The notes beneath the pieces were generated by a model, which had not been told where the DNA came from, did no database searches, and saw only the letters and a program-made list of their open reading frames with translations. Positions 18,906 to 33,219 of a DNA stretch of 64,000 bases are shown one piece after another (the first letter of the stretch is position 1; each line of letters starts with the position of its first letter). The DNA is taken from NCBI RefSeq assembly GCF_013201825.1, contig NZ_CP053836.1, positions 434,001-498,000 on the forward strand. Reading direction: 5' to 3'. The position numbers and the translations under genes were made by a program. The DNA comes from Halarcobacter ebronensis. GTDB taxonomy: Bacteria; Campylobacterota; Campylobacteria; Campylobacterales; Arcobacteraceae.

Positions 18906-21185
18906 TTACTCTCTTTCCTCTCTTATTTGTTTTACTGCTTTTACCATATTAATCAAACTTGGTTTTACCTCTTCGTATTTTCTTGTTTTAAGTCCACAAT
19001 CTGGATTAATCCATAGTTGTTCTTTTGGTAATACTTCTAAAAGAAGATTTATTTGTTTAACAATCTCTTCTACACTTGGAACTCTTGGACTATGAATATC
19101 ATAAACACCAGGTCCAACTTCTTGTTTATATCCAACCTCTTTAAATATTTTAAGAAGCTCATTTCCACTTCTTGCTGTTTCTATTGAGATAACATCTGCA
19201 TCCATTGCTTCAATTGTTTTAATAATATCATTAAATTCGCTGTAGCACATGTGAGTATGGATTTGAGTCTCTTGTTTTGCAGAACTAACAGAGATTTTGA
19301 AATCTCTAACTGCCCAATCTTCATACTCTTTGATTTTGTTTGTTCTTAGAGGATAACCCTCTTTAAACGCTGCTTCATCCACTTGAATGATTTTTATACC
19401 CGCTTTTTGTAGGTCGTCAATCTCATCACTAAGTGCAACGGCGATTTGTTTAGATACTTCACTTCTTGGAAGATCATCTCTTACAAAAGACCAATTAAGA
19501 ATAGTAACAGGTCCTGTTAACATACCTTTCATAATTTTTGAAGTTTTACTTTGTGCATATGTAATCCAATCAACAGTCATTGGTTTTGGTCTACTAATAT
19601 CTCCAAATATAAAAGGGGGTTTTACACATCTGCTTCCATACGATTGAACCCAACCATTTTGAGAAAATCCATAACCTTTTAGTTGCTCTCCAAAGTATTC
19701 AACCATATCATTTCTTTCCGGCTCTCCATGAACTAAAACTTCAAGACCACACTCTTCTTGAAATGCGATGCAATCATCAATATAATCTTTCATAGCTTTT
19801 TCATAAAGTTCTTGTGAAATTTCACCTTTTTTGAAATCTCTTCTTGATTTTCTAACTTCTGGTGTTTGAGGAAAAGAACCAATTGTGGTTGTAGCTAAAT
19901 CTTTATAAGCTAAAATCTCTCTTTGAAGTTTTATTCTCTCTTCATATTTACCATTTCTTGAAAACTTATCAAAGCTATTTACTCTCTTTTGAACATCTTT
20001 GTCGTGAATAACTGTAGAATTTTTTCTATTATGGTTTGCATTTATGTTTTCTTCATAAATTTTTATCTCATTTGAATCTAAAGATTCTAAGCCTGAGAAG
20101 AATATCTTTGAAATAATAGTTATCTCTTGAAGTTTTTCATAGGCAAAACTCAACCACTCTTTTATAGATGAATCTAATTTTTGTTCATATTTTAGTGTTA
20201 AAGGTGAATGAAGAAGTGAACAAGATGAAGAGATAAGTAGATTATCTTTTTTTATATGTTTTGTTATATTTGCCAAAATCTCTAAAGTATTTTGAATATT
20301 GTTTTTCCAAATATTTCTTCCATCAACAACACCTGCTATAAGTTTTTTACCACTGTTTGCAATCTCTTCTAAAGCTTGTGTATTCTCTTCTCCATATAAA
20401 AAATCAAGTCCTATTCCCCAAATAGGAGTTTTTGTTAAAACTTTTGTAGCTTCATTTGAGTGCTCAAAATATGTTGTAACAATAATTTTTAAATTGTCAC
20501 TTATAGTTCCTAATCTATCATATACAGGTTTTATTAGACTTAATACTTTTGGTTCATTGTCTTTTACAAAGATTGGTTCATCAATTTGAACTATTACACT
20601 ATCATCTAAAGTTGAAAGCTCATTTAAGAGTTTTTCATATATAGGAAGAACTTTACTTAGAAGTTCAAAAGTGTCACCTCTGTCAACTCTTTTTGAAAGA
20701 CCTAAGAATGTTATTGGTCCAATTAGGTTTATTTTTGTTTTTATTCCTAACTCTTTTGCTTCTTTATACTCTTCTAATATTTTAGAAGAATTTAGCGAGT
20801 ATTTATCATCAAGTGAAAGTTCAGGAACTATATAATGGTAGTTTGTATTAAACCATTTTGTCATCTCCATTGCTACAGAGTTTTGATTTCCTCTAGCCAT
20901 TGCAAAATACAGCTCTTCATCTTTTAGATGTTTAAATCTTTTAGGAATAGCATTTAACATAAATGCGGTATCTAACATATTGTCATAAAGTGAAAAATCA
21001 TTTGAACTGATATATGTTATACCTGCATCTTTTTGATAATTCCAGTGTCTTTTTTTTAGTTCACTTGCAACTTTTTTTACTTCATCGAATGAGCAATCTT
21101 TTGCCCAAAAACTCTCTAATACTTTTTTTAACTCTCTTTTCTCTCCAATTCTTGGAAATCCTATTACATAACTATTTTTTGACAT
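18906..21185 (-). CDS. metE: Cobalamin-independent methionine synthase
   Basis: A 759-residue MetE that transfers a methyl group from methyltetrahydrofolate triglutamate to homocysteine, using zinc. Two similar barrels are present. The zinc ligands in the C-terminal barrel are in QIHTHMCYSEF (His and Cys near residues 640-642) and NPDCGLKTRKYEE (Cys near 727). TTTIGSFPQT near 437 marks the start of the catalytic half. Length is standard. It is preceded by about 480 bp with only a doubtful ORF, and no MetR-type regulator is visible nearby. Confidence 0.96.
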   Translation of the reverse strand: MSKNSYVIGFPRIGEKRELKKVLESFWAKDCSFDEVKKVASELKKRHWNYQKDAGITYISSNDFSLYDNMLDTAFMLNAIPKRFKHLKDEELYFAMARGNQNSVAMEMTKWFNTNYHYIVPELSLDDKYSLNSSKILEEYKEAKELGIKTKINLIGPITFLGLSKRVDRGDTFELLSKVLPIYEKLLNELSTLDDSVIVQIDEPIFVKDNEPKVLSLIKPVYDRLGTISDNLKIIVTTYFEHSNEATKVLTKTPIWGIGLDFLYGEENTQALEEIANSGKKLIAGVVDGRNIWKNNIQNTLEILANITKHIKKDNLLISSSCSLLHSPLTLKYEQKLDSSIKEWLSFAYEKLQEITIISKIFFSGLESLDSNEIKIYEENINANHNRKNSTVIHDKDVQKRVNSFDKFSRNGKYEERIKLQREILAYKDLATTTIGSFPQTPEVRKSRRDFKKGEISQELYEKAMKDYIDDCIAFQEECGLEVLVHGEPERNDMVEYFGEQLKGYGFSQNGWVQSYGSRCVKPPFIFGDISRPKPMTVDWITYAQSKTSKIMKGMLTGPVTILNWSFVRDDLPRSEVSKQIAVALSDEIDDLQKAGIKIIQVDEAAFKEGYPLRTNKIKEYEDWAVRDFKISVSSAKQETQIHTHMCYSEFNDIIKTIEAMDADVISIETARSGNELLKIFKEVGYKQEVGPGVYDIHSPRVPSVEEIVKQINLLLEVLPKEQLWINPDCGLKTRKYEEVKPSLINMVKAVKQIREERE

Positions 21186-21220
21186 TAATATATCCTTTGA
21201 ATTTTTTCTTTTTTGTATGA

Positions 21221-21586
21221 TTAAATATTTGATATATTAAGTGGTGGATGTACTCCTGTTCGTCTAAATGCGAAATAGGTAGTATAATATGGACATCTAG
21301 GAATAAACTTAAATAAAGAGACAGCTAGTTTAGTTTTTTTTCTAAAAGCACAGTCACAGTGATAAGGTTTATTAAGCTTTGTTAAAACAGATATAGAGTT
21401 TAGTAATTTGGGGGGATCATCCTCCTTCAATTCATCTATATCTTTAGATGTGCTATATCGTAAAGTCTTTTTCGCAATAGTAATTTGGTTTTCAATTTTT
21501 ATTTGTACACTATGGGCTAATATACTTGCAAATGAAAAATATTTTTTTCCAAAACCTTTTGGTGACTTCACAGCTTTTCCTTTCAT
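21221..21586 (-). CDS. Uncertain 121-residue ORF in the metE upstream region
   Basis: I do not recognise this sequence. The ORF encodes a basic protein with a lysine-rich start, a central DIDELKEDDPPK acidic stretch and cysteines in CDCAFRKK and RCPYY near the end. It lies 35 bp upstream of metE on the same strand. No ribosome binding site precedes the ATG, although AAAGGA stands 6 nt before a GTG five codons in. A TATAAT at 21603-21608 is only 17 bp upstream of the ATG, so the transcript could instead be a long metE leader. Composition is a little less AT-rich than its neighbours. Confidence 0.35.
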   Translation of the reverse strand: MKGKAVKSPKGFGKKYFSFASILAHSVQIKIENQITIAKKTLRYSTSKDIDELKEDDPPKLLNSISVLTKLNKPYHCDCAFRKKTKLAVSLFKFIPRCPYYTTYFAFRRTGVHPPLNISNI

Positions 21587-21670
21587 AAAATTTAAGTCTG
21601 CAATTATATCATGGAAAACTAAACTTAATTTAAATTTAGATAATATTCAAAAAAATAAATAAGGTTTATT

Positions 21671-22360
21671 TTGAAATTTACATTTGTATCTCTATTCCCA
21701 AATTTAATTGAACCTTACTTTTATGATTCAATATTAAAAAGAGCTATAGAGGCAGGATTTTTAACTTATGAATTTTATAACCCAAGGGATTATACAAAGA
21801 ATAAACATTTAAAAGTTGATTCTCCTATGATAGGAGGAGGTGCGGGGATGCTTATGAATTGTCAACCCCTTTTTGATTGTTTAGATGAGATAAAAAAGAA
21901 AAATCCTGAAGCTTATATCATATTTCCATTAGCAGCAGCAAAACCTTTTAGGCAAAATGATGCAAAAAGATTGGCAAAAAAAGAAAATCTTGTTTTTGTT
22001 AGTGGAAGATATGAGGGAATTGATGAGAGAGTAATAGAAAAATATGCAAATGAAATCTTTTCTATAGGAGAATTTATCCTAACAGGAGGAGAATTACCCT
22101 CTTTGGTTATGGCAGATGCAATTTCTAGAAATGTAGAAGGTGTGCTTGGTAATGTAGATTCTTTGACTATGGAGAGTTATGAAAACAATCTTTTAGAGGC
22201 ACCATCTTTTTCAAAACCTGAAAATTTTGAAAATTTAAGTGTAATTAAAGAATTCTTAAAGGGAAATCATAGTAAAATTGCCGACCTAAAAAACAATCTG
22301 GCTATTTGCAAAACAAAATATTTTAGACCGGGATTGATTACAAGAAAAAAAACAAAATAA
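21671..22360 (+). CDS. trmD: tRNA (guanine37-N1)-methyltransferase TrmD
   Basis: A 229-residue SPOUT methyltransferase that makes m1G37 in tRNAs and so prevents frameshifting. It starts at TTG 21671. Motifs are [15 protein letters not shown] at the N-terminus, GGGAGML near 57, the knot sequence [11 protein letters not shown] near 112 and [14 protein letters not shown] near 133. Length is at the short end of the family (230-250). It is followed by rplS, the common trmD-rplS pairing, and the rplS leader hairpin begins just after its stop. Confidence 0.95.
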
Positions 22361-22364
22361 AAGC

Positions 22365-22401
22365 GTGATACCCCGCAACTTGCAAATGCGGGCACTTTCA
22401 C
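22365..22401 (+). ncRNA. Candidate structured leader upstream of rplS
   Basis: Between trmD and rplS, CCCGCA (22372-22377) pairs with TGCGGG (22387-22392) around a 9-nt loop. An outer GTGA (22365-22368) can pair with TCAC (22398-22401). This is one of the few GC-rich patches in the AT-rich area and sits right before the AAAGGG ribosome binding site of rplS. There is no T run, so it is not a terminator. It could be an L19-binding autoregulatory leader, which is inference. Confidence 0.5.
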
Positions 22402-22415
22402 TAAAGGGAAATACA

Positions 22416-22772
22416 ATGAAAAATAGATATATTGCGAGCTTTGAAGCAGCGCAACTTGCAGAAAAAGAGATTCCACAGTTTAGAGCTGGTGATACAGTAA
22501 GACTTGGTGTTGAAATTAAAGAGGGTGAAAAAAAGAGAGTTCAGTCTTACGAAGGTATCGTTATTGCTAGAGGTGGTAACGGAGTAGATGCTACATTTAC
22601 AGTAAGAAAAATTGGAGCTAACTCTGTTGGTGTTGAGAGAATCTTCCCACTATACTCAGAATCAATTAAAACTTTTGAAGTTGTAAGAAGAGGAAAAGTA
22701 AGAAGAGCTAAACTTCACTACCTAAGAGGTCTTACAGGAAAAGCTGCTAGAATTAAAGAGCTTAAAAAGTAA
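22416..22772 (+). CDS. rplS: 50S ribosomal protein L19
   Basis: A 118-residue ribosomal protein L19. I use ATG 22416-22418 because the N-terminus [14 protein letters not shown] matches L19 and AAAGGGAAA lies just upstream. The frame is open to 22365 but that part covers the leader hairpin. Family features are [22 protein letters not shown] and the basic end [19 protein letters not shown]. It follows trmD with 55 bp between. Confidence 0.97.
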
Positions 22773-22805
22773 TCTAACTAAGGCCTTAGCCTTAGTTTTA
22801 CTTTC

Positions 22806-23342
22806 ATGTCAAAAACTTTAATTTATACTGCATTACTTCCAGAAGCACAACCACTTATCAACTTTTTAAAACTAAAAGAGGACAACTCTGTTCGAAATCT
22901 ATCATTAAATTTCAAACTTTTTAAAGATGAAGATGAAAAATATCTATTAATAGTATCTGGTATTGGTAGAGATAATTGTTTTAAATCTTTAGATTTTGTT
23001 TACAATAACTATGAGATAAAAAAAGCTATAAATATAGGAATTGCTGGTTGTTGTGATTCTTCAATTAAGATTGGAACACTATTTTGTACAAATAAACTGC
23101 TTCCAAATATAAACTTTGCTTCAATTACTACTGTTGATGAACCTTTACAAAGTGATGAAAATTTAGAAACACTTTTGGTTGATATGGAAGCAAAATATTT
23201 TTTAGAGATTTCAAAAAAATATTGTAAAAATATCTATTGTTTTAAAGTTGTATCAGATTATTTAGATATACAAATTCCTAAAAAATCTTTTGTAATTGAA
23301 CTTATAGAAAAATGCAAAAAGCAGTGGAAAGACTACCTATGA
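22806..23342 (+). CDS. Short nucleoside phosphorylase/nucleosidase-like protein
   Basis: A 178-residue protein with the fold signatures of the purine nucleoside phosphorylase/MTA-SAH nucleosidase superfamily. YTALLPEAQPLINFL at the N-terminus, INIGIAGCCDSS near 78, LVDMEAKYF near 122 (equivalent of the substrate-binding Met-Glu) and a conserved late VSDYLD (equivalent of the catalytic Asp region) are visible. It is shorter than MTAN or futalosine hydrolase (220-250 residues). Its substrate is unknown. The stop overlaps the start of the radical SAM gene (ATGA), so the two are coupled. Confidence 0.75.
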   Translation: MSKTLIYTALLPEAQPLINFLKLKEDNSVRNLSLNFKLFKDEDEKYLLIVSGIGRDNCFKSLDFVYNNYEIKKAINIGIAGCCDSSIKIGTLFCTNKLLPNINFASITTVDEPLQSDENLETLLVDMEAKYFLEISKKYCKNIYCFKVVSDYLDIQIPKKSFVIELIEKCKKQWKDYL

Positions 23343-24586
23343 GTTATGAAAAGAAGTTTGAAGAGTCTGTAGATAAAACAAACTTTCAAAAACTCTCTTT
23401 AGAAAATCAAGAGTTTATAAAAAAGCAAGCTTTTTTTTATGAGTTCTCTTTTCAAGAGCTAAAACAACTAATAGATTTTGCCATAGATTTTAAGATGTGG
23501 CATGAGGGTGATATAAGCTCTTTTTTCAAAAATGAATATTCAAATAGAAAAAATGCTTTCAATGATATTAGAAAAAAATGGGAAGAGTTAAAACAAAAAC
23601 CAAACTCATATAAAAATTTTACAAAAGATTTATACAAAGATGATATTAGAAAGTTTTCATTCACTAAATTTGAAGGAGAAAAAACAGCTCTTGGTTCTTG
23701 CCCTGTTGCAAGTGCTAATACAAGATGTTGTAATTTATTAACTTTGGATGCAGTTCAATCTTGTGGTTTTGATTGCTCTTATTGTTCTATACAGAGTTTT
23801 TACAATCAAGACAAAATTGGTTTTGATATTAATTTTAAAAAAAATTTGGAAAATCTAAAACTTGATCCCAATGAGATCTATCATATAGGAACAGGACAAA
23901 GTTCAGATTCACTTATGTGGGGGAACAAAGAGGGGATACTTGATGCTCTTTTTGCTTTTGCAAAAAATAATCCAAATGTTATTTTGGAGTTTAAAACCAA
24001 ATCAAACAATATAAAATATTTTTTAGAAAATGAAGTTCCTAAAAATATAATTTGTACTTGGTCTTTAAATACTCCAACTATAATTGAAAATGAAGAGCAT
24101 TTAGCTGCCTCTCTAACTCAGAGAATAGAATCTGCAAAAAAAGTTAGTGAAAAGGGTGTTTTAGTTGGGTTTCATTTTCATCCTATTGTTCACTATGAAA
24201 ACTATTTAAATGAGTATGAAGAGGTTTATAAAACTCTTATAAACACCTTTGATTCTAAAAAAGTAGCATTAGTTTCATTTGGAACATTAACTTTTATAAA
24301 ACCAGTTATAAATAAAATTAGAAGTAGAAATTTTAAATCAAAGATTTTACAAATGCCTTTTTCTGATGCAAATGGTAAACAATCATATCCTTTAGAGATA
24401 AAAAGAGAGATGTTTAGACATGCTTATGAGAGCTTTAAGCCTTGGCACAAAGATGTATATTTTTATCTTTGTATGGAAGATGAATCTTTATGGAAAGATG
24501 TTTTTGGTTATGAATATATCTCAAACAATCAAATGGAAGAGTTTATGAAGATGGCATACTTGAATAAGATAAAGCAAAACTCTTAA
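23339..24586 (+). CDS. Radical SAM protein of the spore photoproduct lyase-like family
   Basis: A 415-residue radical SAM enzyme resembling SplB. I place the start at ATG 23339, which overlaps the previous stop as ATGA; an upstream ATG at 23312 lies inside the previous gene. The [4Fe-4S] motif is C-GFD-C-SY-C near residue 141, and TGQSSDSL and EFKTKSNNI follow as in the SPL family. A cysteine-rich stretch (SCPVASANTRCCN) just before it is characteristic of this branch. These bacteria do not form spores, so the substrate is probably something other than the spore thymine dimer. Confidence 0.78.
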   Translation: MSYEKKFEESVDKTNFQKLSLENQEFIKKQAFFYEFSFQELKQLIDFAIDFKMWHEGDISSFFKNEYSNRKNAFNDIRKKWEELKQKPNSYKNFTKDLYKDDIRKFSFTKFEGEKTALGSCPVASANTRCCNLLTLDAVQSCGFDCSYCSIQSFYNQDKIGFDINFKKNLENLKLDPNEIYHIGTGQSSDSLMWGNKEGILDALFAFAKNNPNVILEFKTKSNNIKYFLENEVPKNIICTWSLNTPTIIENEEHLAASLTQRIESAKKVSEKGVLVGFHFHPIVHYENYLNEYEEVYKTLINTFDSKKVALVSFGTLTFIKPVINKIRSRNFKSKILQMPFSDANGKQSYPLEIKREMFRHAYESFKPWHKDVYFYLCMEDESLWKDVFGYEYISNNQMEEFMKMAYLNKIKQNS

Positions 24587-24618
24587 GAAAGAGTTTATAT
24601 GAAAATTTTTAAGAAATG

Positions 24619-24639
24619 TGGTTTTGTTTTATAAAACCA
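24619..24639. terminator. Possible terminator between convergent genes
   Basis: TGGTTTT (24619-24625) and AAAACCA (24633-24639) form a 7-bp stem after the radical SAM gene. It overlaps the last codons of the small minus-strand ORF at 24629. Confidence 0.5.
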
Positions 24640-24766
24640 TATTTATTAAAGTGGACGCTTCTTTAATAGTTAATCCAGCTTTTGAACAAGCATCTTCCAA
24701 TTTTTCATTTTTTTTTAGTAGTTTTAAAAAAACTATATATTTATATTCCATTGTTAAAATGTGCAT
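24629..24766 (-). CDS. Small 45-residue ORF with a helix-turn-helix-like end
   Basis: ATG 24764-24766 follows AAAAGGATAAAA, a good ribosome binding site, and opens a 45-residue frame. The second half (NEKLEDACSKAGLTIKEASTLINMVL) looks like a helix-turn-helix of the kind seen in small DNA-binding proteins. The frame also runs on from the decayed methyltransferase upstream, so it could be a fragment of a readthrough tail. The ribosome binding site argues for a separate small gene. Family not recognised. Confidence 0.45.
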   Translation of the reverse strand: MHILTMEYKYIVFLKLLKKNEKLEDACSKAGLTIKEASTLINMVL

Positions 24767-25365
24767 TTTTATCCTTTTATTATATTTATAAATAGAACCT
24801 TTGAATACTGAATTAGAGTATTTTAAGGTAGCTATCTTTTCATATTTAAACCCAAAGTTCATCATCTCTTTTTTAAATTTTGAAGGATTACCTTTTTTTG
24901 GGTCAACAATTATTACTTCATATTTATTATTTGCAGATTGACTAATAAAATGAGAAAGTAATTTTTCATGATTTTGCTAGTAAAGTAAATGAGTTCCACT
25001 TATTAAATCAAACTTACAAGTTTCTTCAAAATTGAGTTATTTAAAAGAAAAGATTCTACTTCAGAGTGATAATCAGTTGCTGAAATATTTTGTTGTAAAT
25101 GATTTAAAAGTAAACTACTTAGACTGATACTACAACCAACTTCAAGAATTCTTCTTGAGGTTGTGTCAGATTAATAAATAAAGTTTGCTAAAATGTGATT
25201 TGAAGGACACAAGACTCCAAACAGAGCCCAAGATGCAGAATTTATTCCTAATTCTTGAGCTTCACTATTTTTATTATAAAATTGTTGGGTCTTTAAGTGT
25301 TTTTAAATGTATATCTACATTATCAAATACTATTGTTTGATATTTATATCTTATTTTGGACAAAC
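24767..25365 (-). pseudogene. Decayed class I SAM-dependent methyltransferase
   Basis: Translating the minus strand in several frames gives a chain of methyltransferase pieces in the right order. The pieces are YQTIVFDNVDIHLKTLKDP, then QFYNKNSEAQELGINSASW with ALFGVLCPS, then RRILEVGCSISLSSLLLNHL (the SAM-binding motif I, normally EVGCGIGLSS), then YEVIIVDPKKGN and MNFGFKYEKIA. They are separated by at least three stop codons or frameshifts and a missing stretch around 25000. The reading frame is beyond repair by one sequencing error. The functional ancestor was probably a protein or small-molecule methyltransferase; the 5' end is lost toward the cold-shock gene. Confidence 0.8.
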
Positions 25366-25369
25366 AAAC

Positions 25370-25588
25370 TTATAGAGCTTCTACACTTGTTGCTTGTTCA
25401 CCTTTTTGGTTTACACCAATGTTAAAAGTTACTTTTTGACCATCAGTTAATGAAGATTTTCCATAACCTTTGTTATTAATTTCAGTATAGTGTACGAATA
25501 TATCTTTGCTATTATCTTCTAATTGGATAAATCCAAAACCTTTATCATTATTGAACCATTTTACAGTTCCATTGTATCTATTTGACAT
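25370..25588 (-). CDS. Cold-shock domain protein
   Basis: A 72-residue CspA-type OB-fold RNA/DNA-binding protein. I use ATG 25586-25588 because it follows AAAAGGATTTCT and gives the standard N-terminus ahead of GTVKWFN. RNP1 is KGFGFI and RNP2 is DIFVHY. An acidic NSKD loop precedes RNP2. Such proteins act as RNA chaperones, in the cold or in general growth. It is divergent from the TPR-methyltransferase gene with 330 bp between them, leaving room for a long 5' untranslated region. Confidence 0.93.
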
Positions 25589-25890
25589 AGAAATCCTTTT
25601 TATGTATTTCTTCATTTAAGAAGTTTTAGTAAAGTTAAATCAGGGTTTTAAATTTTCGAGAGACAGATGTTGAGTGTGAATCAATAAAAAGCAAACAATA
25701 AATAAGTACTAATTTTTTCTTTAAGTGCGAAACTATATCTGAAAAAAATAAAAATAGCAAGTTTTTTTTACTGAAATATGAAATTTAATAAATTTTATAC
25801 AGTTTTATTTATTAGATTGATATTAAAAAGATACACTTTAATAGAGCCTATTTTAATCTTTTTTGATTTAACACTTAATTAACATTTTCT
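25589..25890. other. Non-coding gap between the cold-shock gene and the TPR-methyltransferase gene
   Basis: About 300 bp of very AT-rich sequence with no credible ORF. TTGATA (about 25817) followed by TTTAAT suggests a plus-strand promoter near 25815-25850. The part next to the cold-shock gene could be a long 5' leader of the kind that controls cspA genes, but I see no clear cold-box. Nothing else is identifiable. Confidence 0.4.
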
Positions 25891-25913
25891 GCAGCTCAAT
25901 CCTTAGGAGCTGC
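25891..25913 (+). promoter_or_regulatory. Hairpin that covers part of the ribosome binding site of the 25919 gene
   Basis: GCAGCTC (25891-25897) pairs perfectly with GAGCTGC (25907-25913) around a 9-nt loop. The Shine-Dalgarno AGGAG (25905-25909) straddles the loop and the 3' arm, and the ATG is 9 nt further on. Translation should therefore depend on opening this 7-bp, GC-richer stem. Confidence 0.6.
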
Positions 25914-25918
25914 ATATT

Positions 25919-27043
25919 ATGAATACAAAACTTACAATTGAACAATCTTTAGAAAAAGCTATTTTGTTTCAAAAATCTGGAATGATAAATAAAGCGAAAG
26001 TGATTTATGAAGATATATTAAATGAAAATGAAACTAATTTCAAAGCTTGCTTTGAGTTGGGAAACTGTTATGAAAAGATTAAAGATTATAATAAGGCACT
26101 TTTTTATTTTAAAAAAGCTTCAAAAGTAAATAGTAAATGTTATGTTTGTCACCTTAATATGTCGAAAATTTATGAGAAACTTAGTAAATTTGAATTTTCA
26201 CTTTTTCATTTAGATAGAGTAGTTATTATTTGTCCAGATTTTTATGATGTACTTTTTTTAATTGCACAGTGTTATAGAAAAATGAAAAATGAAAGTAAAA
26301 TGATTGAGTATTTGAATAAAACATTATCAAAGTTGCCAAAACACCCTGGTGCTAATCATTTGTTAGCATCAATAAATAAAGAGATAATAAGTGAATTTTC
26401 TTCAGAATATGCTGAAGATTTATTTGATAGATATGCAGGACATTTTGAAGAGCATTTAGTTTCATCATTAAAATACCAAGTGCCATTTATTATAAAAGAA
26501 AAATTAAAACTTTTAAATCTTTCAAATGAGTCAAAAGTTTTAGATTTAGGATGTGGTACTGGGTTATTAGGAAAAACTATTATTAAACAATTTTCAAATA
26601 TAGTAGGTGTTGATATATCCACTAACATGATTGAAGAAACAAGAAAAAAAGATATCTATTCAAAACTTTATATCAAGGATATAAGTGACTTTCTTTCCCA
26701 AAATACTGAAAAATTTGATTTAATTATTGCTGCAGATGTTTTTATATATATAGGTAATATTGAAACTATTTTTAATTATGTAGAAAAATGTATAAGTTCT
26801 GACGGTTATTTTATATTTACTGTTGAATTATCATTAGAGACTAATATCAAAGATTTTCAACTAGCAAAAAGTGGTAGGTTTTCGCATGATATTAGCTACA
26901 TAGTAGCTTTATGCAAAAATATTGGTTTTGAGATAGTAGAGAAAGAAGAAATTATTTTAAGAGAAGAAAATAAAATTGGTCAAAAAGGCGTTATTTTTAT
27001 ATTAAAAAAACTAGTTAAATTTGATACAAATTATGATACATAA
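25919..27043 (+). CDS. TPR-repeat protein fused to a SAM-dependent methyltransferase
   Basis: A 374-residue protein. Residues about 5-145 form three to four tetratricopeptide repeats (AKVIYEDILNENETNFKACFELGNC and similar). A linker with YAEDLFDRYAGHFEEHL, typical of TPR-methyltransferase fusions, leads to a class I methyltransferase with motif I VLDLGCGTGLLG near 208. VDISTNMI and IIAADVFIYIG follow. TPRs usually bind a partner, so the target is probably a protein, but it cannot be named. Its translation appears to be gated by a hairpin on the ribosome binding site. Confidence 0.82.
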   Translation: MNTKLTIEQSLEKAILFQKSGMINKAKVIYEDILNENETNFKACFELGNCYEKIKDYNKALFYFKKASKVNSKCYVCHLNMSKIYEKLSKFEFSLFHLDRVVIICPDFYDVLFLIAQCYRKMKNESKMIEYLNKTLSKLPKHPGANHLLASINKEIISEFSSEYAEDLFDRYAGHFEEHLVSSLKYQVPFIIKEKLKLLNLSNESKVLDLGCGTGLLGKTIIKQFSNIVGVDISTNMIEETRKKDIYSKLYIKDISDFLSQNTEKFDLIIAADVFIYIGNIETIFNYVEKCISSDGYFIFTVELSLETNIKDFQLAKSGRFSHDISYIVALCKNIGFEIVEKEEIILREENKIGQKGVIFILKKLVKFDTNYDT

Positions 27044-27162
27044 GTTGTTGAGATATTAAATAACAAAAAATAATTCTCTTTAAGTTACACTGTTGTCGAA
27101 TCTCTAACAACTCCCATAATTAAGCAAATTATGAAGATAATATTAAATCTGGAAACTTATGG

Positions 27163-27168
27163 TATAAT
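27163..27168 (+). promoter_or_regulatory. Probable -10 element for the five-PAS kinase
   Basis: TATAAT 34 bp upstream of the ATG at 27202, within GGTATAATTAAAG. The preceding 100 bp hold an imperfect inverted repeat (AGTTGTTGAGAT near 27043 and ATCTCTAACAACT near 27100), which could be the end of the upstream transcript or an operator. Confidence 0.55.
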
Positions 27169-27201
27169 TAAAGATTTCATATAAATAAGACGAGAGATGC
27201 T

Positions 27202-29955
27202 ATGCAGATATCAGAAACACACTATTTAAAAGAAGAATTAGACAAATTAATAAAATCTGATATATTTATTTTTGAATTTATAGAGTCTAGCTCATTGGAT
27301 GGAATTTGGTATTGGGATTTAGAAAATCCTGAAAACCAATGGATGAGTGAAAGATTCTGGAAAATATTGGGCTTTGATCCAAAAGATAAAGAACATAAAT
27401 CTATTGAGTGGCAAAAACTAGTCCATGAAGAAGATCTAAAATTAGCTCTTGACAACTTTCATAAACACTTAGAAGATTCCTCTTATCCCTATGATCAAAT
27501 ATTAAGATATAAACATGCAAATGGTTCAGTAGTTTGGATTAGATGTAGAGGTTTGGCTATTAGAGATGAAAATGGTAAACCAATTAGAATGATTGGTGCT
27601 CACAATGATATGACTATGGTTATGGATAGTCTGAAAAAATTAGAGAGTTATAACGGCTTAGATAAATTAAATCAAGATTTAACCAAAAAATATAAACAAG
27701 AACAGACTCAAAGAATAGAAGTACAAAAAATAAATAGGACTATTGAGAGACATATAAATTTGATTGATAAATTTATTATTAGTGCAACTTTAGATTTAGA
27801 TGGAGTAATTGCTAGTGTGTCAAATGCTTTTTGCAAAGTATCAGGATATACTAAAGAAGAGCTTTTGGGCAAATCATATTCAAAATTTTTGTATCCAGAT
27901 ATACAAGATGAATTTATAAAAAAAATAAAAAATTTAGAAGATAATGAAATCTTAGAGGAGGAGTGCAAAAGTCTAAAAAAAGATGGAACTACATATTGGA
28001 TTTTTAGCACTATCTCAGCTCTTAAAAATGATGATAATGAGAGAGTTGGATATTCTATTTTTAGTATTGATATAACTGACAAAAATATAATCAAACAAAA
28101 CAACTTGGAGCTTAAAACAGTAAAAGAGACTCTAGATAACGCTGCAAAAATTGCAAAACTTGGTACTTGGGAATGGGATATAAAAAAAGACATAATTAAG
28201 TTTTCAAAAATTGCAAATGATATTTTTGGAATTCAAACAGGTCAATTTGTAGATTTTGAGACACTTAAAAAGTTAGTTGTAAAAGATGATAAAAGACGAT
28301 ATAGAAGAATTTTTAACAGAGCTGTAAAAAAGAAACTCTCTTTTAACTTTGAGTATAGAATCTATAAAAGTGATGAGATTAGAAAAATATGGGTTATTGG
28401 AAATCCAATAGTAGAAAATAATCAAGTTGTTAGAATAACTGGGATTGTGCAAGATGTAACTGAACTAAAACAAGTTGAAGAGGAGCTAGAAGAGGCTCAA
28501 AAGATTGCAAGGGTAGGGCACTATAATTATAATGCAAATAAAGATATCTTTACAAATTCATATATTATTGATGAAATTTTTGGTTTTGATAACAACAAAG
28601 AGAAGAGCTTAAGAGTTTGGCAACTTCTTATTCATCAAGAGGATAGAAAAAGAGTTACAAAATATTTTAAAGATGTAGTTGCTTTAAAAGATAAGTTTGA
28701 TATTGAATATCGAGTAGTAAACAGAAAAACACAAGCAATAAAATGGGTTCATATGTTAGGTGAACTCTCTTTTGATAGAAATGGGAAAATCTCAAGTTAT
28801 TTTGGAACAATTCAAGATATTACAAAAAGAAAAGAGTTGGAGAGTGACTTGCAACAAGCTCACAATGTATTTGAACATACCCATGATGGAATTTTAGTAA
28901 CCGATGAAGATGGAAATATCTTAAATGTAAACAAATCCTATGAGAAGATTACAGGTTATAAACTAGAAGAGGTAATTGGATTAAATCCTTCTATTTTAAA
29001 ATCTGGTGTTCATGATGATGAGTTTTACAAAGAGCTTTGGGAAGAGGTTAAAACAAATGGTTATTGGAGTGGAGAGATTCACAACAAAAGAAAAGATGGG
29101 AAAATCTACCAAGAGTTGTTAACAATAAATGCAATATATAATGAAAATGGGCATATCTGCAACTATATAGGACTTTTTAGTGATATTACAAAACAGAGAA
29201 AACAAGATAAGCTAATTCTTCAACAATCAAGAACAGCAGCAATTGGAGAGATGTTAGAGAATATTGCCCACCAATGGAGACAACCTTTATCAATAATCTC
29301 AACTTCATCAAGTGGTTTAAAATTACTTTTAGAGATGGATGTTAACAATGAGATACCAAAAGAGAAAGTTTTAAATGTTTTAGATGATATTAATAAATAT
29401 ACACAATATCTCTCTGATACAATAGAGGATTTTAGAAGTTTCTTTAAAGGGGATATGACACAAATAAAAGTATTTAATGTAAGAGATACTTTAGAAAAAC
29501 TTTTAAATCTAACAAAAGACTCTTTTTCTCATAGTTTTATTACCTTTATACAAGATAGTAATAAAGAGGATTTATTTGTAGAAAACAATGAAAATATATT
29601 AACCCAGGCCTTGATTAATATCTATAATAACGCCAAAGATGCTTTAGTAGAGAATGTTGATGAAAATAGAAAAAGACTCTTTTTCCTTTCAAGTCATAGA
29701 AGGGGAGATCTCCTTCATTTGCATTTTAGAGATAATGCAGGGGGGATAAAAAGGGAAGTATTAAATCAAATTTTTGACCCATATTTTACAACTAAACATG
29801 AATCAATAGGAACAGGATTAGGACTTTATATGACCTATCAAATTATTACTAAACAGTTAAAAGGTAGTATTGAAGTTCATAATGTAACTTATGAGTATAA
29901 AGGGGAGATACACAAAGGGGCAGAGTTTACTATAAAATTGCCCCTTAGTAAATAA
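27202..29955 (+). CDS. Cytoplasmic sensor histidine kinase with five PAS domains
   Basis: A 917-residue kinase with no membrane segment. PAS-like domains lie at about 38-137, 190-290, 310-420, 430-545 and 550-670, each ending in a typical D(I/V)T segment. The first has the WYWD start of the PAS_3 type. The dimerisation/phosphotransfer helix has GEMLENIAHQWRQPLS near 690, and the ATPase domain shows N-box NIYNNAKDAL, DNAGGI and GTGLGLYM. The phosphorylated residue is predicted to be the His of NIAHQW. There is no response regulator beside it, so its partner is elsewhere. The string of PAS domains suggests sensing of redox or small molecules in the cytoplasm. Confidence 0.88.
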   Translation: MQISETHYLKEELDKLIKSDIFIFEFIESSSLDGIWYWDLENPENQWMSERFWKILGFDPKDKEHKSIEWQKLVHEEDLKLALDNFHKHLEDSSYPYDQILRYKHANGSVVWIRCRGLAIRDENGKPIRMIGAHNDMTMVMDSLKKLESYNGLDKLNQDLTKKYKQEQTQRIEVQKINRTIERHINLIDKFIISATLDLDGVIASVSNAFCKVSGYTKEELLGKSYSKFLYPDIQDEFIKKIKNLEDNEILEEECKSLKKDGTTYWIFSTISALKNDDNERVGYSIFSIDITDKNIIKQNNLELKTVKETLDNAAKIAKLGTWEWDIKKDIIKFSKIANDIFGIQTGQFVDFETLKKLVVKDDKRRYRRIFNRAVKKKLSFNFEYRIYKSDEIRKIWVIGNPIVENNQVVRITGIVQDVTELKQVEEELEEAQKIARVGHYNYNANKDIFTNSYIIDEIFGFDNNKEKSLRVWQLLIHQEDRKRVTKYFKDVVALKDKFDIEYRVVNRKTQAIKWVHMLGELSFDRNGKISSYFGTIQDITKRKELESDLQQAHNVFEHTHDGILVTDEDGNILNVNKSYEKITGYKLEEVIGLNPSILKSGVHDDEFYKELWEEVKTNGYWSGEIHNKRKDGKIYQELLTINAIYNENGHICNYIGLFSDITKQRKQDKLILQQSRTAAIGEMLENIAHQWRQPLSIISTSSSGLKLLLEMDVNNEIPKEKVLNVLDDINKYTQYLSDTIEDFRSFFKGDMTQIKVFNVRDTLEKLLNLTKDSFSHSFITFIQDSNKEDLFVENNENILTQALINIYNNAKDALVENVDENRKRLFFLSSHRRGDLLHLHFRDNAGGIKREVLNQIFDPYFTTKHESIGTGLGLYMTYQIITKQLKGSIEVHNVTYEYKGEIHKGAEFTIKLPLSK

Positions 29956-29956
29956 T

Positions 29957-30520
29957 TTAGCTATTTAAATATTTTGATAAAGAGGAACTCCAATCTTCAT
30001 TAAGAAGAGTTTGTTTATATTCAAAAGCTTTTTGTTCTAACTCTTCATCACTTATTTTTAAAGCTTTATATACATAAAAGGGCATAGTATAACTCATCCT
30101 TGTAAATTTAGCCATTGTCTCAAAAGGTTTTAATAACTCGTTCATACTTACTTGAATATATGCACCTGCTTGATATGCAAATTCAGGTGATCCCATTGTT
30201 GTTACAATTTTAAATTCTTTTGTTTTGAGTTTTCCCCCTTCACTCCCATACGCAAAACCATACTCTAAAACTTTGTCTTGCCACTCTTTTAAAAGACTTG
30301 GTGAACTAAACCAATAAAATGGGAATTGGAATACTATTCTATCGTGTTCTAAAAGTAGTGTTTGTTCCCTTTTTATATCAATTTTGTCAAATGATTTATA
30401 TTCCGAATATAGATTATTTATAGTTATATTTTTTTCATTTTTTATTGTATTAATAAGGGTTTTATTTAGTCTAGATTCTTCAAAATTTGGGTGTGCTAAA
30501 ATTATTAGTGTTTTTTTCAT
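29957..30520 (-). CDS. Flavodoxin-fold NAD(P)H oxidoreductase (NQO1/KefF-like)
   Basis: A 187-residue flavoprotein of the NAD(P)H:quinone oxidoreductase/KefF family. I use ATG 30518-30520 (MKKTLIILAHPN) instead of a TTG seven codons upstream. ILAHPNFEESRLN is the FMN phosphate-binding start. FQFPFYWFSSPSLLKEWQDKV near 92-112 is the strongly conserved family motif, and TTMGSPEFAY follows near 136. It probably reduces quinones or electrophiles with FMN. Upstream lies a striking repeat operator, so it is likely inducible. It ends two bases from the stop of the plus-strand kinase. Confidence 0.88.
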   Translation of the reverse strand: MKKTLIILAHPNFEESRLNKTLINTIKNEKNITINNLYSEYKSFDKIDIKREQTLLLEHDRIVFQFPFYWFSSPSLLKEWQDKVLEYGFAYGSEGGKLKTKEFKIVTTMGSPEFAYQAGAYIQVSMNELLKPFETMAKFTRMSYTMPFYVYKALKISDEELEQKAFEYKQTLLNEDWSSSLSKYLNS

Positions 30521-30546
30521 ATTGTAATATCCTTTTTTCAAATACT

Positions 30547-30597
30547 ATTCAATACTTACTTAAAATATCTTTACAATACTTTAGGTAAGTATTGAAT
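30547..30597. promoter_or_regulatory. Operator-like array: three copies of CAATACTT in direct and inverted orientation
   Basis: CAATACTT occurs at 30550-30557 and 30574-30581 and its inverse AAGTATTG at 30587-30594. The outer pair extends to a perfect 13-bp inverted repeat (ATTCAATACTTAC and GTAAGTATTGAAT), and the inner pair to 8-5-8. It lies between the oxidoreductase (-) and dedA (+). Inverted repeats of this kind are typical binding sites of MarR- or HxlR-type repressors that control quinone oxidoreductases; no such regulator gene is in the window. Confidence 0.65.
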
Positions 30598-30660
30598 TTA
30601 TTCAAGATACAATTAATTCAATTTTGGTAGAATCAGGAATTAGAAAAATAAAGGATAATA

Positions 30661-31284
30661 TTGTTAACTAATATTGTAGATCTTATTGTTCATACTGTTG
30701 GAAGTTTAGGATATTTAGGAATCTTTATAATGATGTTTTTAGAGAGTTCTTTTTTCCCTTTTCCTTCTGAAATTGTTATGATTCCAGCTGGATACTTAGC
30801 CTATAAAGGTGAGATGAATTTAGTTTTTGCAATTCTTTCTGGAATAGCTGGAAGTCTCTGCGGAGCAATTTTTAACTACTATTTGGCAATGAAATTTGGA
30901 AGAAAGTTTTTAAGTAGATATGGGAAATATGTTTTAATAAAAGAGCAAACTTTAGAAAAAATGGAAGATTTTTTTGCAAAACATGGGCATATTTCAACTT
31001 TCAGTGGAAGATTAATCCCTGCTGTTAGACAATATATTTCACTTCCTGCTGGACTTGCAAAGATGAATTTGTGGAAATTTTCACTTTATACAAGTTTGGG
31101 TGCTGGAATTTGGGTACTAATTTTGGCTCTTTTAGGCTACTTTATTGGTTCAAATAAAGAGCTAATTGATGAGTATTTAAAAGTAATTATAGTTACAGTT
31201 TTAATTTTATTAGCCATTATGATTCTTTTTTATATTAGAATAAAAATGAAAAAAGGGCTTATTAAAAAGTGGAGAAAAAGTTGA
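30661..31284 (+). CDS. DedA-family membrane protein
   Basis: A 207-residue DedA/SNARE-associated (VTT domain) protein. It starts at TTG 30661 after AAAGGATAATA. Conserved residues are in [22 protein letters not shown] near 27-48 and in [20 protein letters not shown] near 117-136. There are about four to five hydrophobic segments. DedA proteins are lipid scramblases or are linked to envelope homeostasis and proton motive force; undecaprenyl phosphate or phospholipid recycling is the best-supported role in the family. The 3' end overlaps the start of the SDR gene. Confidence 0.9.
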
Positions 31285-31919
31285 AAAAAAGAGCAATTGT
31301 CACTGGCTACTCTTCAGGAATAGGAAAAGCTATTTGTGAAAGTTTAGAAAAAAGTGATTTTGAAATCATTAGATTAAAAAGTAGACTTGAAGATATAAAA
31401 GCTTTAGAAGCAGAGCTAAAAGAGATATTAAAAGATAAAGATATCTCTGTTTTAATAAACTGTGCTGGAGTTGGAGTTTTTAAACCCCATGAAGAGATCT
31501 CTTTATCAAAAATAAAAGAGTTAATTGATGTTAATTTAACTGCACCAATTATTCTTGCAAATTTATGCCTTAGAAGCCTTAAAAAAACAAAAGGGCATAT
31601 AATAAATATTGCTTCAATAGAGGCAACAAGACACTCTAAATTTTCAGCACTATATACTGCTACAAAGAGTGGACTTAGAGATTTCTCTTTGGCACTATTT
31701 GAAGAGTTAAGAAGAAGTGATGTAAAGGTTACAAATATAAATCCAGATTTGACAAAAACAAACTTCTTTGATACTCTAAATTTTCAACCAAGTGAAAACA
31801 AAGAGGCTCATATCTTACCTGAAGATATAGCAAAAACAGTTTTAGATATTTTGGCTTTTGATGGTGTTATTACTGATATTACCATTCGTCCTCAAAGATT
31901 AGAGATTTTAAAGAAATAG
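31281..31919 (+). CDS. Short-chain dehydrogenase/reductase
   Basis: A 212-residue SDR. I prefer TTG 31281, which overlaps the dedA stop and lies 8 nt after GGAG; a GTG at 31269 would add four residues. The cofactor motif is TGYSSGIG near residues 7-14, NCAGVG near 65 and the catalytic YTATK near 133. The Arg-Leu-Lys after the second strand fits NADP. The substrate is unknown. It sits in a row of dedA, SDR and a membrane protein that look like one transcription unit. Confidence 0.85.
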
Positions 31920-31921
31920 TT

Positions 31922-32752
31922 ATGAAACAATTTATTTTAAATAACTGGAATAGGGTATTACTTTCTATTTTTACAGTTTTAGCCTTAGCTTTGGCTCTTT
32001 GCTTTACTATTGATGATGATGCAAAAAAGTTAGTTGATAACTCTTTTAAACAAGCTGTTATTGTATTTGGAAGTGCAAAGGCTTTAAATGGAGTAATCTC
32101 ACTTGCTCAAGGAACTGAGCTTGATTTGCCTTTTGTAGTTGTTGCAATAGGGCAAGTTTTAGATCCTATAAATGATTTAGTTGAACAATTTTCTTTGGTA
32201 ATGCTTGCAAGTATGATATCTCTTGGTATCCAAAAGATTTTATTGGGTTTTGTAACAAATGATATTTATAATATAACTCTTTTAGTTTTTATTGTAACTT
32301 TTAATATATGGCTTTTTAAACGTTTTAAAAAAGATGAAAAAATAAGAGAGATATTTTTCAAAGCAACTTTTGTTTTACTCTTTTTAAGATTTGCAATACC
32401 CATGATAAGTTATGTAAATGATATCTCTTACAACTACTTTGTAAAACCACAATACAATATAGAAAAGTTAAATGAGAATATTATTCAAGTAAAAGATAGT
32501 GTAAGTAGCGTAACCCAAGAAACAATTAAACAGAAAGAACAAAGTTCTTTTATAAATAAAGTTATGGAAAAATTTGATAGCTCCTATTATGAAAAAAAGA
32601 TAGAAGAGTATACAGATGCAGCTAATAATTCAAGTGAGTATATTGTTGATTTGATTATTGTTTTTGTATTTCAAACTATACTTCTACCTATTGTTTTCCT
32701 TTTTGTTTTATATTTTTTTATAAAAGCACTTTTTAATATAAGAAAGTCCTAA
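31922..32752 (+). CDS. Membrane protein of unknown function with a coiled-coil loop
   Basis: A 276-residue protein that I cannot assign to a family. Hydrophobic segments lie at about 12-28, 90-112, 120-133, 147-165 and 240-270. Between the last two there is a long, probably helical hydrophilic stretch (about 185-235) with ENIIQVKDSVSSV and EKKIEEYTDAANN. It starts 3 bp after the SDR gene, so it is likely co-transcribed, and its stop overlaps the convergent exporter gene by 4 bp. Confidence 0.75.
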   Translation: MKQFILNNWNRVLLSIFTVLALALALCFTIDDDAKKLVDNSFKQAVIVFGSAKALNGVISLAQGTELDLPFVVVAIGQVLDPINDLVEQFSLVMLASMISLGIQKILLGFVTNDIYNITLLVFIVTFNIWLFKRFKKDEKIREIFFKATFVLLFLRFAIPMISYVNDISYNYFVKPQYNIEKLNENIIQVKDSVSSVTQETIKQKEQSSFINKVMEKFDSSYYEKKIEEYTDAANNSSEYIVDLIIVFVFQTILLPIVFLFVLYFFIKALFNIRKS

Positions 32753-33219
32753 ATAATAGGACGATTATATCTTATATAATAAAGTGATGGTAGTGCAAGT
32801 CCAAAACCAATTCCACCTAAAACTATAATTGTTCTTAGTGAGTTATCAACAAAAGTTGTAATAAGTTCAGGTGTTACTCCGTGGGCATTCATTGTTATTA
32901 AATTTATAATTGCAGAAAAGGCATAAGTTCCAGGAAGCATAGGAATTATTGATGCAATAGTATAAACAGGTCTTGGAACAATATATTTTCTTGACCAATA
33001 TAGAGCAACTATACCAACAATAGTTGAAGCTAAAAAGGTTGAAAGCTCCAAAGATAGGTTAAGATCCATTAAAAACTTTCTAGAACAGTAAGCAATAGCT
33101 CCACCATAAGCACATTTCAAAAGAGTCTCTTTTGGAACATTAAATACCATTCCAAAACCAACAGCAGGAATACCTGAAAAGATAGCCGCTAATAGATAAT
33201 CAATAATTATTGCACTCAT
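32749..33219 (-). CDS. Small subunit of a split ThrE-type threonine/serine exporter (YjjB-like)
   Basis: A 156-residue membrane protein with about four to five helices, matching the YjjB half of the bacterial ThrE transporter family (DUF3815). PVYTIASIIPMLPGTYAFSAI near 85-105 is the family hallmark. It is next to the YjjP-like gene on the same strand with 1 bp between, and YjjP plus YjjB together correspond to one full-length ThrE. The two-gene arrangement supports export of a small carboxylic or amino acid across the inner membrane, and succinate has also been reported as a substrate for the E. coli pair. Confidence 0.85.
   Translation of the reverse strand: MSAIIIDYLLAAIFSGIPAVGFGMVFNVPKETLLKCAYGGAIAYCSRKFLMDLNLSLELSTFLASTIVGIVALYWSRKYIVPRPVYTIASIIPMLPGTYAFSAIINLITMNAHGVTPELITTFVDNSLRTIIVLGGIGFGLALPSLYYIRYNRPII

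Follow-up and report, generated by a model that had tools for sequence, protein, structure and literature searches.

Why should a compact nucleosidase be encoded in overlap with an SPL-like radical SAM enzyme? The window, the whole 64,000-nucleotide stretch of DNA that was analysed, contains a gene for a nucleosidase of 178 residues (22806..23342, +) followed by a gene for an SPL-like radical SAM enzyme of 415 residues (23339..24586, +). The ATGA start/stop overlap (23339..23342, +) that a sequence-only reading of this DNA had described is borne out, with the nucleosidase stop codon TGA at 23340-23342 and the SPL-like ATG at 23339-23341. This ATG is in frame with a 424-residue ORF, for which the ORF finder gave a start at 23312. 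Genes that resemble trmD and rplS by eye lie upstream of the pair. Both proteins were identified by Pfam, AlphaFold (AF2) models and VIA structure alignments, and the nucleosidase also by its conservation in and beyond the phylum. The pair belongs to a three-enzyme set, completed by a short-chain dehydrogenase (SDR), that is co-inherited across several bacterial phyla.

The nucleosidase is a member of the MTAN/PNP superfamily, as had been claimed from the sequence, given its Pfam PNP_UDP_1 match (27.1 bits; cut-off 25.1) and its MTAN fold. The AF2 model (pLDDT 96) aligns with CT263, the compact form of Chlamydia, at a VIA-align Z score of 20.6 and with full MTANs at 18-20, a tie. A profile of 85 relatives (A7) aligns end to end with the MTAN of S. 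aureus (E 6e-14) and places VDMEA opposite VEMEA and VVSD opposite VSD. Glu12, Glu174 and Asp197 of the MTAN catalytic triad are matched by Glu13 (codon 22842..22844, +; Glu in 85/85 relatives), Glu128 in VDMEA (23187..23189, +; Glu in 85/85) and Asp151 in VVSD (23256..23258, +; Asp in 83/85). The nucleosidase thus shares the fold, the Glu-Glu-Asp triad and a full-length alignment with MTAN and CT263, but it scores far below the MTAN cut-offs (26.6 bits versus 169 for the curated NCBIfam model NF004079), coexists with a full MTAN and is tied to one radical SAM partner. The sequence-only reading called the protein truncated-looking. It is indeed shorter than full MTANs by approximately 50 residues, which are missing between the β-barrel core and the VDME motif, but truncation is the wrong word for a complete compact MTAN fold whose length of 165-190 residues is kept throughout its branch. 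Judged by sequence and model, the enzyme is compact rather than broken, with both the fold and the catalytic residues of MTAN preserved. The nucleoside-cleaving residues whose lack would have spoken against the earlier interpretation are in place, with the triad in the sequence and a confidently modelled fold. An intact active site with a triad of the adenine-nucleosidase type predicts cleavage of an adenine nucleoside.

The second protein is an SPL-like radical SAM enzyme, as the same reading proposed, by its Pfam SPL match (52.7 bits; cut-off 27), its SPL fold and its CX3CX2C motif. The motif, CGFDCSYC (Cys142, Cys146 and Cys149; 23762..23785, +), is invariant in 80 aligned relatives. Residues 104-379 of the AF2 model (pLDDT 93) align with SPL structure 4fhf over 268 residues at a VIA-align Z score of 26.7, and the next folds are MqnE (Z 15.5) and lipoyl synthase (Z 14.8), separated from each other by less than 1. 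The N-terminal helical domain of approximately 100 residues lies outside the structure matches. Sequence and model show an intact radical SAM site and a preserved SPL fold. The enzyme resembles SplB (PF20903, TIGR04070) in the radical SAM fold, in a CX3CX2C motif with a Tyr between the second and third Cys and in the motifs around Lys221 and Arg262, which are common to both. Unlike SplB, it falls below the curated equivalog cut-off of TIGR04070 (64.7 bits versus 400; a clostridial module copy reaches 98 bits), carries the extra N-terminal domain and is linked to a nucleosidase and an SDR.

The module enzyme further differs from SplB at two positions, given here in Bacillus numbering. At the Cys141 position, the branch of the window has Gln (33/33) and the distant branch has Tyr (44/47) or Phe (3/47). 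At the Tyr99 position, which belongs to the SAM-regeneration relay, Ser (29/33) or Ala (4/33) is found in the window branch and Tyr (38) or Phe (9) in the distant branch. In the SPL of B. subtilis, C141A and Y99F abolish SAM regeneration, so that each turnover costs one SAM (PMC3742179). We withdrew the argument that the absence of Cys141 disproves photoproduct repair, because accepted clostridial SPLs also lack this residue, with Ala or Ser in its place, and carry an upstream Cys instead, such as Cys74 of the C. acetobutylicum SPL at the -14 position relative to the cluster (PMC5368176). The window branch likewise has invariant Cys residues (Cys121, Cys130 and Cys131) upstream of the cluster motif. 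A Cys is found at -17 in 42 of the 47 distant copies and at -14 in the accepted clostridial SPLs, and only Cys121 aligns.

As a separate observation, the N-terminal helical domain (window positions 23339-23640, SPL residues 1-100) may correspond to the C-terminal extension of clostridial nucleosidases, transferred over the boundary between the two genes. In hhalign, the two regions score 23.3 with a probability of 22.6%; the highest score among 60 column shuffles is 18.0, and the reversed sequence gives 11.2. This comparison is only suggestive of homology.

The module does not end with the pair. The sequence-only reading missed a third enzyme, an SDR (31281..31919, +; Pfam adh_short, 117 bits) that lies 6.7 kb downstream of the pair in the window. 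In many relatives its orthologue adjoins the pair or the nucleosidase: often it is the neighbour of the SPL-like gene, and elsewhere it immediately follows the nucleosidase gene (L058, L059). The cofactor motif TGxxxGIG and the Tyr-x3-Lys motif are present, and Gly13, Gly17, Ile18, Gly19, Tyr129 and Lys133 are invariant (alignment A3). The SDR gene, for which the ORF finder gave a GTG start at 31269, is coupled through a TTGA overlap to the preceding ORF (30661..31284, +), which by eye encodes a DedA-family-like membrane protein. DedA-like homologues adjoin the SPL, nucleosidase or SDR gene at L070, L071, L100 and L101 and, by eye, at L111 and L112. Outside the window's own family, the DedA-like gene was not seen with the module, and its membership is doubtful.

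How firmly are these genes linked? Among 298 genomes of the phylum, the SPL-like gene, counted for either branch, is present in 61 genomes from 28 of 58 genera, and the nucleosidase is encoded in every one of them (61/61). This association is far beyond chance; Fisher p-values ignore phylogeny, and the genus count (28/58) is the safer statement. It is not merely a consequence of gene order, given that the genes are often far apart: in 58 genomes compared, the nucleosidase and SPL-like genes share a contig at a distance above 10 kb in at least 13 and lie on different contigs in 14. In genome G039, the distance is approximately 4.5 kb. An SDR orthologue accompanies the pair in 49 of these 61 genomes, and the SDR step may be replaceable or absent in the other 12. 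A nucleosidase without an SPL was found only as a contig-end fragment (G210) and as an intact ORF in G291 (L070:5225-5743) that has lost the catalytic Glu, with VDKQ in place of VDME; no SPL or SDR was found in the G291 genome, and the VDKQ sequence probably reflects decay after partner loss. A single weak, partial nucleosidase match in G239 (38.7 bits) was left aside. All 61 module genomes also encode a full canonical MTAN.

The linkage extends beyond the phylum. When species genomes were scanned for the distant branch, at least 227 proved to encode it, and the counts given here are for the best 80 loci. These best 80 are mostly from Clostridia (Lachnospiraceae, Caloramator, Thermobrachium and Clostridium ragsdalei) and include Fusobacteriaceae, a member of the Leptospiraceae and a Thermodesulfobacteriaceae MAG. 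The nucleosidase gene is beside the SPL gene at 75 and the SDR gene at 61 of them; Clostridia, Fusobacteriaceae and Thermodesulfobacteriaceae share the gene order nucleosidase-SPL-SDR. The question of whether the two genes travel together, which the sequence-only reading had left to a survey, is thus answered by 61/61 genomes within the phylum and 75 of the best 80 loci outside it. Moreover, the nucleosidase and the SPL form one ORF at six loci: L114 (Fusobacterium vincentii), L127, L143, L157, L163 and L173. As a control, 7 of 15 module-bearing clostridial genomes also hold a separate SPL above the curated cut-off. Neither a nucleosidase nor an SDR lies alongside these separate SPLs or two intermediate copies, whereas the module copies have them. 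The module SPLs form one clade (support 0.997) apart from the separate clostridial SPLs, with the Campylobacterota as a monophyletic long branch inside it. A fourth module gene was rejected, since no flanking family recurs in more than nine cross-phylum loci and the DedA-like link is confined to the window's own family.

A member of this set has been noticed before. In the genome paper of Nautilia profundicola, the SPL homologue GAmH_0507 is interpreted as a DNA-repair photolyase that only Epsilonproteobacteria from vents possess, and a short-chain dehydrogenase (GAmH_0506) is drawn as its neighbour (PMC2628731). In the present survey, the SPL-like gene is not limited to vent species. Our literature search found no paper on the three-gene set. 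Such proteins carry the labels DNA-repair photolyase or SPL, MTA/SAH nucleosidase and generic oxidoreductase, and the module is thereby overlooked; under these generic labels, a conserved system stays invisible in environmental Campylobacterota, in gut and environmental Clostridia and in Fusobacteria. The perfect co-inheritance and the fusion link the functions of the enzymes with unusual firmness and offer a ready assay.

What could the three enzymes do together? In the menaquinone route, the radical SAM step of MqnE is followed by MTAN, a nucleosidase that removes adenine. HpnH and HpnG, which act on the hopanoid side chain, provide a precedent of adenosylation and depurination, in which the subsequent reductase is still unidentified (PMC12583986). 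By analogy, we propose a relay in which the SPL-like enzyme would cleave SAM and use the 5'-deoxyadenosyl radical on, or transfer it to, an unsaturated or C-H substrate to yield an adenosyl-containing intermediate. The partner nucleosidase would then take adenine off this intermediate, and the SDR would reduce or oxidise the resulting sugar or carbonyl as the third step. We infer that this sequence of radical adenosylation, depurination and SDR finish is the preferred mechanism, at a probability of about 0.42. The wider claim, of a new pathway in several phyla in which an SPL-derived enzyme adenosylates, a dedicated and sometimes fused nucleosidase depurinates and an SDR completes the product, is tentative. 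The module differs from HpnH-HpnG and MqnE-MTAN in that its radical enzyme is of the SPL type, an SDR is included and fusions exist; a radical SAM step followed by adenine removal would be the shared feature. The three-gene DrdK-DrdI-DrdA system for 5-deoxyribose salvage also deals with the fate of the 5'-deoxyadenosyl moiety, but it consists of a kinase, an isomerase and an aldolase, none of which recurs beside the module.

Several observations bear on the relay from both sides. The window branch has Ser or Ala at the Tyr99 position, and loss of this Tyr in the B. subtilis SPL turns SAM into a consumed co-substrate (PMC3742179), which speaks for the relay. The distant branch, in contrast, keeps Tyr or Phe there, and some clostridial module copies carry degenerate nucleosidases, with that of L115 degenerate and those of L141 and L160 devoid of Asp151; both points count against the relay, as does the lack of an SDR in 12 of the 61 genomes. 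The adenosylation step itself is drawn by analogy with HpnH and MqnE, whereas SPLs, the nearest relatives of the enzyme, abstract hydrogen. If the relay is true, the module would be a third case of SAM as a ribosyl-carbon donor, besides menaquinone and hopanoids, and would represent a new reaction for the SPL family, whose enzymes would gain a second chemistry.

The strongest alternative is that the nucleosidase hydrolyses 5'-deoxyadenosine at its source while SAM is consumed in a repair or modification reaction and the SDR reduces 5-deoxyribose or the product of the radical enzyme. Radical SAM enzymes are inhibited by 5'-deoxyadenosine, which nucleosidases can cleave (PMC6079011), and the adenine-nucleosidase type of the triad and the fusion, which would put the remover at the source, agree with this explanation; local clean-up might be useful despite a general MTAN. 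However, the canonical MTAN of all 61 module genomes would do the same job, so that an enzyme serving only to remove 5'-deoxyadenosine would be superfluous, and the compact nucleosidase is expected to have a separate role. It would also be unusual for a single radical enzyme to have two enzymes devoted to its by-product, and the co-inheritance stays perfect even where the genes are unlinked. Furthermore, the nucleosidase is never lost unless the partner is lost, a pattern that suggests a dedicated substrate. A specific step on an intermediate of the pathway therefore fits better than mere 5'-deoxyadenosine removal, which we regard as unlikely. The earlier suggestion of a by-product remover survives in part: action on the adenosyl product of the partner is still the leading type of explanation, and plain 5'-deoxyadenosine removal has become less likely because of the full MTAN in 61/61 genomes.

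The radical enzyme could instead act as a dehydratase or epimerase that generates a ketone on a sugar or nucleoside for reduction by the SDR, with the nucleosidase freeing the modified sugar or base. AprD4 and AprD3 serve as the model for such a pair. The direct adjacency of the SDR and radical SAM genes in many loci and the SDR's Tyr-x3-Lys motif, with invariant Tyr129 and Lys133, are consistent with this scheme; yet we found no sequence relation to AprD4-type enzymes, and the scheme gives the nucleosidase no obligatory role, which makes it distinctly unlikely.

Repair of DNA or RNA damage, in which the SPL-like enzyme would reverse a thymine photoproduct or a related lesion with the nucleosidase and SDR as accessories, is the least probable of the developed alternatives. 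The SPL fold (Z 26.7), the conserved Cys upstream of the cluster motif, with Cys121 aligned to the clostridial SPL Cys at -14, and the photolyase name of the Nautilia copy (PMC2628731) all speak for it. Against it stand the score of 64.7 bits versus the TIGR04070 cut-off of 400, the separate above-threshold SPLs of 7/15 module-bearing clostridial genomes, which lack a nucleosidase or SDR beside them, and the distinct clade of the module SPLs. In addition, many hosts inhabit guts or vents, out of reach of sunlight. The module is most likely a biosynthetic or repair pathway and not a spore DNA repair system. A QueL-like queuine lyase, another candidate, found no support.

The surroundings of the module were searched for mobile, defence and RNA features. 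PADLOC, which covers described anti-phage systems, has no family for the nucleosidase, the SPL-like enzyme or the SDR, and the lack of a match argues against a described defence system only. A mobile-element origin was likewise rejected: IMG/VR yielded no relative in a search with profile A2, the only plasmid match, a distant one, is a 2.1-Mb Fusobacterium replicon, and of two distant matches among human faecal 'phage' scaffolds, the one that was read (L115) has bacterial-looking flanks. This scaffold (MT835514.1), filed as 'Bacteriophage sp.', holds an SDR gene, a degenerate nucleosidase gene and an SPL-like gene and is probably a mislabelled bacterial contig. The 2.1-Mb replicon (L114, NZ_CP084075.1), whose record calls it a plasmid of Fusobacterium vincentii, probably represents a chromosome. 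No RNA element was found in window positions 21000-33000.

Some further observations concern individual loci. In some f7 genomes (L064, L065 and L066), the module is located beside genes that by eye resemble flagellar cap genes (FliD, FliS), and L064 and L065 also have PseB/PseC-like sugar-nucleotide genes, again by eye; neither kind was seen beside the module elsewhere. Genome G163 has an orphan SDR (L108:4866-5561) beside FliD- and FliS-like genes, and its relative G116 (L064) has all three module genes. The genome of the window encodes a second compact PNP_UDP_1 protein of 178 residues outside the module (L102:6728-7264; G000:C1, approximately 166.7 kb), with a weak futalosine-hydrolase match over its C-terminal half. 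At L102:7302-7769, a reverse-strand ORF encodes successive copies of the peptide MDAFAYPFRFIKTLRCFSSF, which reflects a tandem repeat in the DNA.
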